Shown here: in pieces, positions 28,230-29,219 of the stretch
Position numbering within the stretch: the first letter of the stretch is position 1
How the letters are laid out: every line of letters starts with the position of its first letter
Assembly (NCBI GenBank): GCA_025355545.1
Contig: JANXZN010000371.1
Coordinates: 1-41,015 of the forward strand
DNA: 41,015 bases
From: Rhizobacter sp.
GTDB taxonomy: Bacteria; Pseudomonadota; Gammaproteobacteria; Burkholderiales; Burkholderiaceae_C
Direction of reading: 5' to 3'
Made by a program: the position numbers and the translations under genes
The notes under the pieces: model-generated
The model's input: only the letters and a program-made list of their open reading frames with translations
Database searches by the model: none
What the model was told of the DNA's origin: nothing

Positions 28230-29219
28230 CTACTTGATGAGTTGCTCGCGCTCGTAGCGCAGGTAGACCAGTGCCGCATTGCGCCGGTGCACCGTATCGT
28301 ACTGATCCCAGGATGCAAAGTCAGGCAGCGCGGTCGAGTCCGGCACCTCGCTCAGCGGCGCGCCGGCCTTCAGCAACGCGCGTACACGCGTCGTCAGTTG
28401 ATCCAGGTAGCGTTCGACCTGCGTGATCATGCGCTTCGACCCGGACGGCCCGTGGCCCGGCACGATCACGTCGACGGGCAGGGCCTGCAGCGTGCGCAAG
28501 GCCTCGCCCCAGCGCGGCAGGTCGCTGTCGAAGACGTCGGGGATGCGCTGCGCATCGAGCAAGCCGCCCGCGAACAGCGTGCGGGTGCGCGGGTCGTACA
28601 CCGCGATGTCGCCCGGGCCGCTGGAATGGCCGAAATAGAGCACCTGGATCGGCCGGCCGATCAGCGCCGCGGCGTCGATGCCGAGCGGGTCGACGAAGCC
28701 GATGTCGGGTGTGAACATGGTCGTGCCGCGCATCGCGTCTTCACCGAGGGAGGCGCGCAGCGTCTGCAGGCAGCCGCCGCAGCGCGCGGCCATCAGCTTT
28801 GCGGCGGCCAGCTGCATCGCGATCGGAATGCCTTGCTCGCGAAACGCCGCGGCGCCGAACAGGAATTCCTGGCGCGTGTGCGTGATGAGAACCAGCCGCA
28901 CCGGCTGGTCGGTCACGCTGCGGATCGCGGCCAGCAACGCGCGGCCGTGCAGGTACGAGGTGCCGGTATCGATCGCGAGCACGCCGGTGCGCCCGACGAT
29001 GAAGCCGGCGTTGCCGATGCGTCCGAGGTTCGCCGTGTCGGGCTCGCCGCCGCTGCCGGGCAGCATGTAGACGCCGGCGGCGAGTTCGATCGGGGCCGGC
29101 GCCGACGGGCGCGCCGCGGCGCCGACAGCCGGGGCGTCGCTGGCCCGTGTCGCGATCGCGGCACACACTAGAACGCCGGCACCCAGCCAGGCGATTGCGG
29201 CGCGCTGCGGTCTGCGCAT
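28230..29219 (-). CDS. MBL-fold quinoprotein relay metallohydrolase-like protein (copy A, degenerate metal motifs)
   Basis: VLAIDTGTSYLHGR, LITHTRQEFLFGAAAF, YFGHSSGPGDIAVYD, LFAGGLLDA, VIVPGHGPSGS. MBL fold without the HxHxDH motif. Confidence 0.8.
   Translation of the reverse strand: MRRPQRAAIAWLGAGVLVCAAIATRASDAPAVGAAARPSAPAPIELAAGVYMLPGSGGEPDTANLGRIGNAGFIVGRTGVLAIDTGTSYLHGRALLAAIRSVTDQPVRLVLITHTRQEFLFGAAAFREQGIPIAMQLAAAKLMAARCGGCLQTLRASLGEDAMRGTTMFTPDIGFVDPLGIDAAALIGRPIQVLYFGHSSGPGDIAVYDPRTRTLFAGGLLDAQRIPDVFDSDLPRWGEALRTLQALPVDVIVPGHGPSGSKRMITQVERYLDQLTTRVRALLKAGAPLSEVPDSTALPDFASWDQYDTVHRRNAALVYLRYEREQLIK

Follow-up and report, generated by a model that had tools for sequence, protein, structure and literature searches.

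Copy A, an MBL-fold protein encoded in the window (the whole 41,015-nucleotide stretch of Rhizobacter sp. DNA that was analysed), is one of a distinct and conserved clade of such proteins, which occurs in Betaproteobacteria and is akin to the metallohydrolases of the quinoprotein relay (SoxH-like). In this clade the canonical metal ligands have decayed and a CxxC motif is present without exception. Far from being the remnant of a decayed gene, copy A is therefore conserved and repurposed, and to judge by its sequence it is very probably a non-hydrolytic MBL-fold pseudoenzyme.

Results

Copy A has lost five of the seven metal ligands

Copy A is an intact open reading frame whose product is exported, the signal sequence having been judged by eye (Table 1). 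It passes the gathering score of PF00753 (Lactamase_B) in a profile search (50.2 bits; cut-off 22.7). Copies A and B could be aligned with hhalign over 296 columns (probability 100, E 1.6e-56), so that their homology is beyond doubt. We scored the seven canonical ligands, numbered as BBL H116, H118, D120, H121, H196, D221 and H263. Copy B has the full set, in agreement with the original prediction that it is canonical. Copy A reads H, R, E, F, S, G and H at these positions; two ligands (H114 and H256) are kept and five are lost. The motif strings quoted in that prediction were all found in the two copies, and the substitutions it described, namely His to Arg, Asp to Glu and His to Phe within THTRQEF and the bridging Asp to Gly, were borne out.

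The register at the third His required correction, since GHSSG had been listed as a kept motif. In the profile alignment, FGHSSGPGD of copy A pairs without gaps with WPTAHTDND of copy B, which places Ser200 opposite H188 and leaves H198 two residues upstream of the third-metal-His position. Retention of the third metal His in GHSSG is thereby ruled out. Relatives of copy A read either GWGHTAGD (the canonical form) or GWASTPGD (the Ser form) at this place, confirming the register. The residue set of a catalytic MBL metallohydrolase (HxHxDH, third His, bridging Asp and final His) is thus not found in copy A.

Table 1. Features of the window and of copies A and B; residue numbers refer to the respective protein.
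Feature	Position	Strand	Details
Formylmethanofuran dehydrogenase-like subunits B and A	12661-15632	plus	methanopterin-linked formaldehyde oxidation; subunit B below curated cut-off
pqqB, pqqC, pqqD, pqqE	23692-26801	plus	convergent with copy A operon; named by sequence and synteny, no family-library scan
Exported thioredoxin-like protein	26817-27368	minus	CPYC; Thioredoxin_7 match weak and under the Pfam cut-off; syntenic, downstream of carrier 2
Fused SoxYZ-like carrier 2	27365-28207	minus	TIGR04557, 227.7 bits; GGCSAPP Cys; directly downstream of copy A
Copy A, MBL-fold pseudo-metallohydrolase with CxxC	28230-29219	minus	329 aa, ATG at 29219
Copy A, longer ORF	28230-29246	minus	alternative TTG start at 29246
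Copy A IDTG			residues 83-86
Copy A THTRQEF, degenerate HxHxDH	28863-28883	minus	residues 113-119; H114 kept, other ligands replaced by R116, E118, F119
Copy A CxxC, C147-G-G-C150	28770-28781	minus	within helix 137-158
Copy A GHSSG			residues 197-201
Copy A H198 of GHSSG	28626-28628	minus	out of register
Copy A Ser200	28620-28622	minus	counterpart of third His (BBL H196)
Copy A LFAGGLLDA			residues 215-223
Copy A Gly219	28563-28565	minus	replaces bridging Asp (BBL D221)
Copy A PGHGP			residues 254-258
Copy A His256	28452-28454	minus	BBL H263, kept
Fused SoxYZ-like carrier 1	29243-30094	minus	TIGR04557, 264.8 bits, cut-off 140; GGCSAPP Cys161; directly upstream of copy A
Copy B, quinoprotein relay system zinc metallohydrolase 2	30104-31051	minus	NCBIfam TIGR04559, 364.7 bits, cut-off 280; 315 aa
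Copy B motifs			THAHPDH 105-111, AHTDND 187-192, LFASDLLF 203-210
Copy B ligands, 7/7			H106, H108, D110, H111, H188, D207, H243
Two exported proteins	31079-31450, 31513-32247	minus	no NCBIfam/Pfam match; syntenic between xoxJ and carrier/hydrolase genes in most loci
xoxJ-like periplasmic binding protein	33289-34260	minus	TIGR03871
xoxG-like cytochrome c	34188-34676	minus	
xoxF, lanthanide-type PQQ methanol dehydrogenase	34720-36540	minus	best solved match 6dam XoxF, E 1e-282; DEWDFDG motif
TIGR03866 propeller	37834-38805		

AlphaFold2 models of the two copies were of high confidence (mean pLDDT 89.1 for copy A and 92.8 for copy B). Copy A adopts the alpha-beta-beta-alpha MBL fold, matching 8d2z in Foldseek with E 2.4e-19 as well as many B1/B2 MBLs, and the neighbours of both copies comprise 8d2z, 6uxu, B1/B2 beta-lactamases and alkylsulfatases. 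The best structural matches of both, 8d2z (an MBL superfamily protein of Burkholderia cenocepacia) and 6uxu (chlorothalonil dehalogenase), superpose with TM ~0.7-0.8, although identity is only ~22% and 8d2z is itself non-canonical in another way (H-x-H-x-V-R, with Arg for the last His). A third MBL paralogue of the Rhizobacter genome (L003, on G000 contig C188) also reads H-x-H-x-V-R, and its last His is replaced by Arg, as in 8d2z.

Ligand loss extends throughout a well-supported clade

Relatives of copy A were sought in 61 genomes of relatives, 399 of the order, 399 of the phylum and a species-level genome collection, the last being scanned with an alignment of a 13-member subset. The named set was recruited with patterns around HSSGPGD and THTRQEFL, and CxxC was not a selection criterion in that set. 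About 80 distinct relatives were found, every one in the order of the window or elsewhere within the Betaproteobacteria, and the clade is so far known, among the genomes sampled, from Betaproteobacteria only. The hosts include Sphaerotilaceae (Rhizobacter, Ideonella, Piscinibacter and Rubrivivax), Variovorax, Methylibium, Azoarcus, Caballeronia and many MAGs; isolates are represented by Ideonella azotifigens, Rhizobacter sp. Root404, Variovorax and Azoarcus. A single branch (SH-aLRT 98) separates the copy A group, with its 74 rows, from copy B and the remaining MBL paralogues in a tree of 155 sequences.

Each of the 74 clade members keeps between 0 and 4 of the seven ligands, as against all seven in 73 of the 81 paralogues outside the clade. 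The His equivalent to H114 of copy A (BBL H116) is kept in 73 members, H118 in 10, H196 in 9, D221 in 3 and H263 (H256 in copy A) in 46, while D120 has become Glu in 66 and H121 is His in none. The exact residue set of copy A recurs in 28 of the 74 members and every member lacks at least three ligands, showing that its ligand loss is neither chance nor a sequencing error. An orthologue with an intact HxHxDH, which would have spoken for a local mutation, was sought among the 74 and was not found; the loss is clade-wide, in support of the earlier suggestion of a pseudoenzyme. Decay is lineage-specific, with subgroups retaining different ligands. The H116/H118/H196 triad is retained in one subgroup (L044, L048, L070-L075), whose members could still bind a single metal to judge from these residues, and D221 is retained in L066, L067 and L072. 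As H114 is nearly invariant, the former pocket may have kept some function.

Ratios of dN/dS (NG86) for copy A against three close orthologues were 0.24-0.27, similar to 0.22 for copy B. Copy A is under purifying selection, and a local mutation or pseudogene was rejected on the basis of these ratios and the clade-wide loss.

Copy A is close to two families of the quinoprotein relay system and falls below the cut-off of each, as do the other clade members scanned; assignment to plain TIGR04558 or TIGR04559 was therefore rejected. TIGR04559 (SoxH_rel_PQQ_2), the family of copy B, shares with copy A the MBL fold, the length, a C-terminal HRRN region and a location in a PQQ dehydrogenase cluster next to a TIGR04557 carrier. 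However, copy A scores 185.5 bits against a cut-off of 280, has lost five of the seven ligands, carries CxxC and lies in a separate clade. TIGR04558 (SoxH_rel_PQQ_1, zinc metallohydrolase 1) has a related MBL fold, and its sampled member L015 (1501-2478; 403.5 bits, well above the TIGR04558 cut-off) and the close relatives L029, L033, L035 and L037 also show a reduced ligand set, with N-x-H-x-D-Y and Gly at D221. Copy A, however, reaches 173.9 bits against 300, the ligands lost are different ones and these TIGR04558-type proteins lack CxxC. A further MBL group in the order (L165, L166, L167, L169, L171, L174, L176, L177 and L183) has TGGQDHRW in place of THxHxDH, keeps GGHTPGD, SGDLV and PGHG, and has no CxxC. 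One member of the copy A clade is publicly annotated as 'MBL fold metallo-hydrolase', a name that is likely to mislead.

An invariant CxxC defines the clade

The original prediction made no mention of the clade's defining gain, an invariant CxxC (C147 and C150 in copy A, in the context RCxxCL). Every clade member carries the motif (74/74) and no paralogue does (0/81); it was conserved without exception at identities down to 30%. C147 and C150 were the sole positions to reach 100% among those that are conserved in the copy A clade and differ in that of copy B. Hits directly below the score gap were also examined for CxxC. Four more divergent proteins with the motif (L173, L175, L178 and L181) join the clade with a support of 98 and display another pattern of ligand loss; the remaining proteins in this score range lack CxxC. 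The motif was found independently in plasmid-borne proteins of Azoarcus sp. KH32C and Caballeronia sp. M1242.

In the model of copy A the two Cys lie inside a confidently predicted helix (residues 137-158) of an MBL fold, unlike the thioredoxin fold, where CxxC stands at a helix N-terminus. Judged by how they are spaced relative to M143 and L154, they may lie on a partly buried face of the helix, which would fit a structural or a metal role too. We rejected a c-type haem site, since the residue after the motif is L, I, F, Y or R and not the His of CxxCH, and an invariant Cu(I) site formed by M143, C147 and C150, since M143 is replaced by Ile in several members. No further invariant set of Cys, His or Asp was seen beside CxxC in the clade.

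Copy A accompanies SoxYZ-like carriers in a methanol oxidation cluster

Copy A lies within a xoxF-xoxG-xoxJ-pqq cluster for methanol oxidation, and the setting of the quinoprotein relay (TIGR04557/8/9), a PQQ dehydrogenase with an adjoining fused SoxYZ-like carrier, is present in the window. The formylmethanofuran dehydrogenase-like genes are consistent with a methylotroph. The genes of most of the 47 named loci run xoxF, xoxG, xoxJ, two hypothetical genes, (copy B), carrier 1, (beta-propeller, SRPBCC-like), copy A, carrier 2 and the thioredoxin-like gene, convergent with pqqEDCB; xoxF was seen in the fetched flank of 27. The YVTN beta-propeller and SRPBCC-like genes occur between carrier 1 and copy A in many relatives (L119, L120, L122, L144 and L147) and are missing from that place in the window. 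A thioredoxin-like gene is found in 32 of the 47 loci, and most of the encoded proteins have a CP[YF]C-type CxxC. A second subgroup has copy A in divergent orientation to a copy B-carrier 1 pair, with no xoxF in the fetched flank and, as in L157 for example, no thioredoxin-like gene nearby. In L157 (6299-6978), two small c-type cytochromes (CxxCH) stand beside the cluster of copy B, carrier and copy A.

A SoxYZ-like carrier was present in 46 of the 47 loci, with carrier 2 directly downstream of copy A in 32, and the GGC Cys was found in 66 of 68 carriers. Copy B, on the other hand, was absent at 24 loci, including 15 whose flank spans its usual place. A TIGR04559 protein above cut-off was missing from 16 of 24 clade-A genomes searched, which is not an unbiased rate, as the 24 were picked mostly because copy B had not been seen at the locus. 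Two genomes of Rubrivivax gelatinosus encode copy A together with both carriers and no other TIGR04559- or TIGR04558-type match near its strength. Since the carrier is nearly constant and copy B is often missing, copy A probably partners the carrier and is unlikely to be an obligate subunit of copy B. The earlier proposal of a carrier-binding partner is in line with this distribution, and the view of copy A as copy B's degenerate companion is not; constant dependence on copy B was rejected.

A lipobox-like N-terminus (LAGC, LGGC) occurs in 24 of the 47 copy A orthologues (for example L121, L122, L123, L125, L127, L129, L132, L134, L146 and L163), suggesting that these are membrane-anchored lipoproteins, and is missing from the copy A of the window and from nearly all copy B proteins.

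Discussion

On SoxY-type carriers the sulfur is bound to a swinging-arm Cys. We tentatively favour an explanation in which the metal-less clade docks on the SoxYZ-like carrier, C147 and C150 exchange with the carrier Cys, and the thioredoxin-like protein is the reductant. Copy A would have abandoned the hydrolysis of any substrate. Once docked, its Cys pair could engage in thiol-disulfide or persulfide exchange with the GGC swinging-arm Cys, and its CPYC neighbour would be a plausible source of reducing power. Copy B may hydrolytically release the oxidised sulfur load of the carrier, as proposed for SoxH on SoxY, and the system as a whole might keep reactive sulfur species from PQQ or maintain the redox state of XoxF. 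The thiol mechanism on the carrier, be it disulfide or persulfide, is in itself a tentative proposal that we put forward with slightly more reserve. That the MBL fold here swapped metal-dependent hydrolysis for dithiol chemistry, the di-zinc site having decayed, CxxC having taken over and the SoxYZ-like carrier having become the target in lanthanide-dependent methanol oxidation, is possible but doubtful. The original prediction had left room for a different metal or chemistry, and among the forms this could take CxxC-based chemistry is the leading candidate.

SoxH of the sulfur-oxidation clusters is, like copy A, a periplasmic MBL protein tied to SoxYZ carriers, and is cited as able to release sulfate from SoxY (PMC11237559). 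It is regarded as a metal-dependent hydrolase, however, whereas copy A has no metal site and is found in a methanol-oxidation cluster. Fused SoxYZ in xoxF loci has been proposed to protect methanol dehydrogenase against thiosulfate (PMC11237559), and a review notes that disulfide formation or cofactor protection has been proposed for the ped-cluster homologues (PMC12997753).

Other readings of copy A have to be weighed against a thiol-based carrier partner. The invariant CxxC and near-invariant H114, along with the possible single-metal triad H116/H118/H196 of one subgroup, would suit a protein that binds a soft or structural metal (Cu, Zn or Fe) through C147/C150, possibly with H114/H256 or other residues, as a metal carrier or a new-metal enzyme of the lanthanide/PQQ system. 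This is unlikely: two helix Cys by themselves make a weak site, the His at the H256 position is far from constant and nothing else invariant accompanies the motif. Rather unlikely, too, is that CxxC forms a stabilising disulfide only, with copy A in a passive role as a chaperone bound to the carrier or a tether to the membrane. The periplasmic location, the lipobox-like N-termini of about half of the orthologues and the position of CxxC on the conserved face of its helix are as this would have it, but exceptionless conservation between such distant members exceeds what is usual for a stabilising disulfide, and i,i+3 disulfides within a helix are strained.

The side-by-side arrangement of intact and degenerate MBL paralogues, and the divergent adjacency of the two copies in the second subgroup, recall INTS9/INTS11 and CPSF100/CPSF73 (PMC7980224), where a protein of MBL fold that has lost its HxHxDH ligands is paired with an active paralogue. 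By analogy, copy A could be a non-catalytic subunit that regulates or scaffolds an active copy B in a heterodimer, with CxxC being structural. We consider this quite improbable given the loci, the searched genomes and the R. gelatinosus strains in which copy B or any comparable paralogue is missing; its frequent absence speaks against an obligate pair of the INTS9/CPSF100 type. These proteins are, moreover, eukaryotic beta-CASP nucleases, and copy A differs from them in its gain of CxxC. A local pseudogene, an assembly error or chance divergence in the source genome has a negligible likelihood: the assembly of the window is fragmented (446 contigs), but the motif is shared by dozens of independent genomes, isolates among them, and dN/dS is ~0.25.

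In the searchable literature we found no paper on the copy A clade, only general statements on SoxYZ/SoxH-like genes. The clade is new as a variant inside a known, functionally unsolved system, the SoxYZ/SoxH-like genes that accompany PQQ dehydrogenases having no established function. With its link to the carrier, its lack of a metal site and its two constant Cys, it offers a direct handle on the question of thiol chemistry in this system. If our explanation is true, copy A would be a clear case of a bacterial MBL pseudoenzyme with a new conserved motif.
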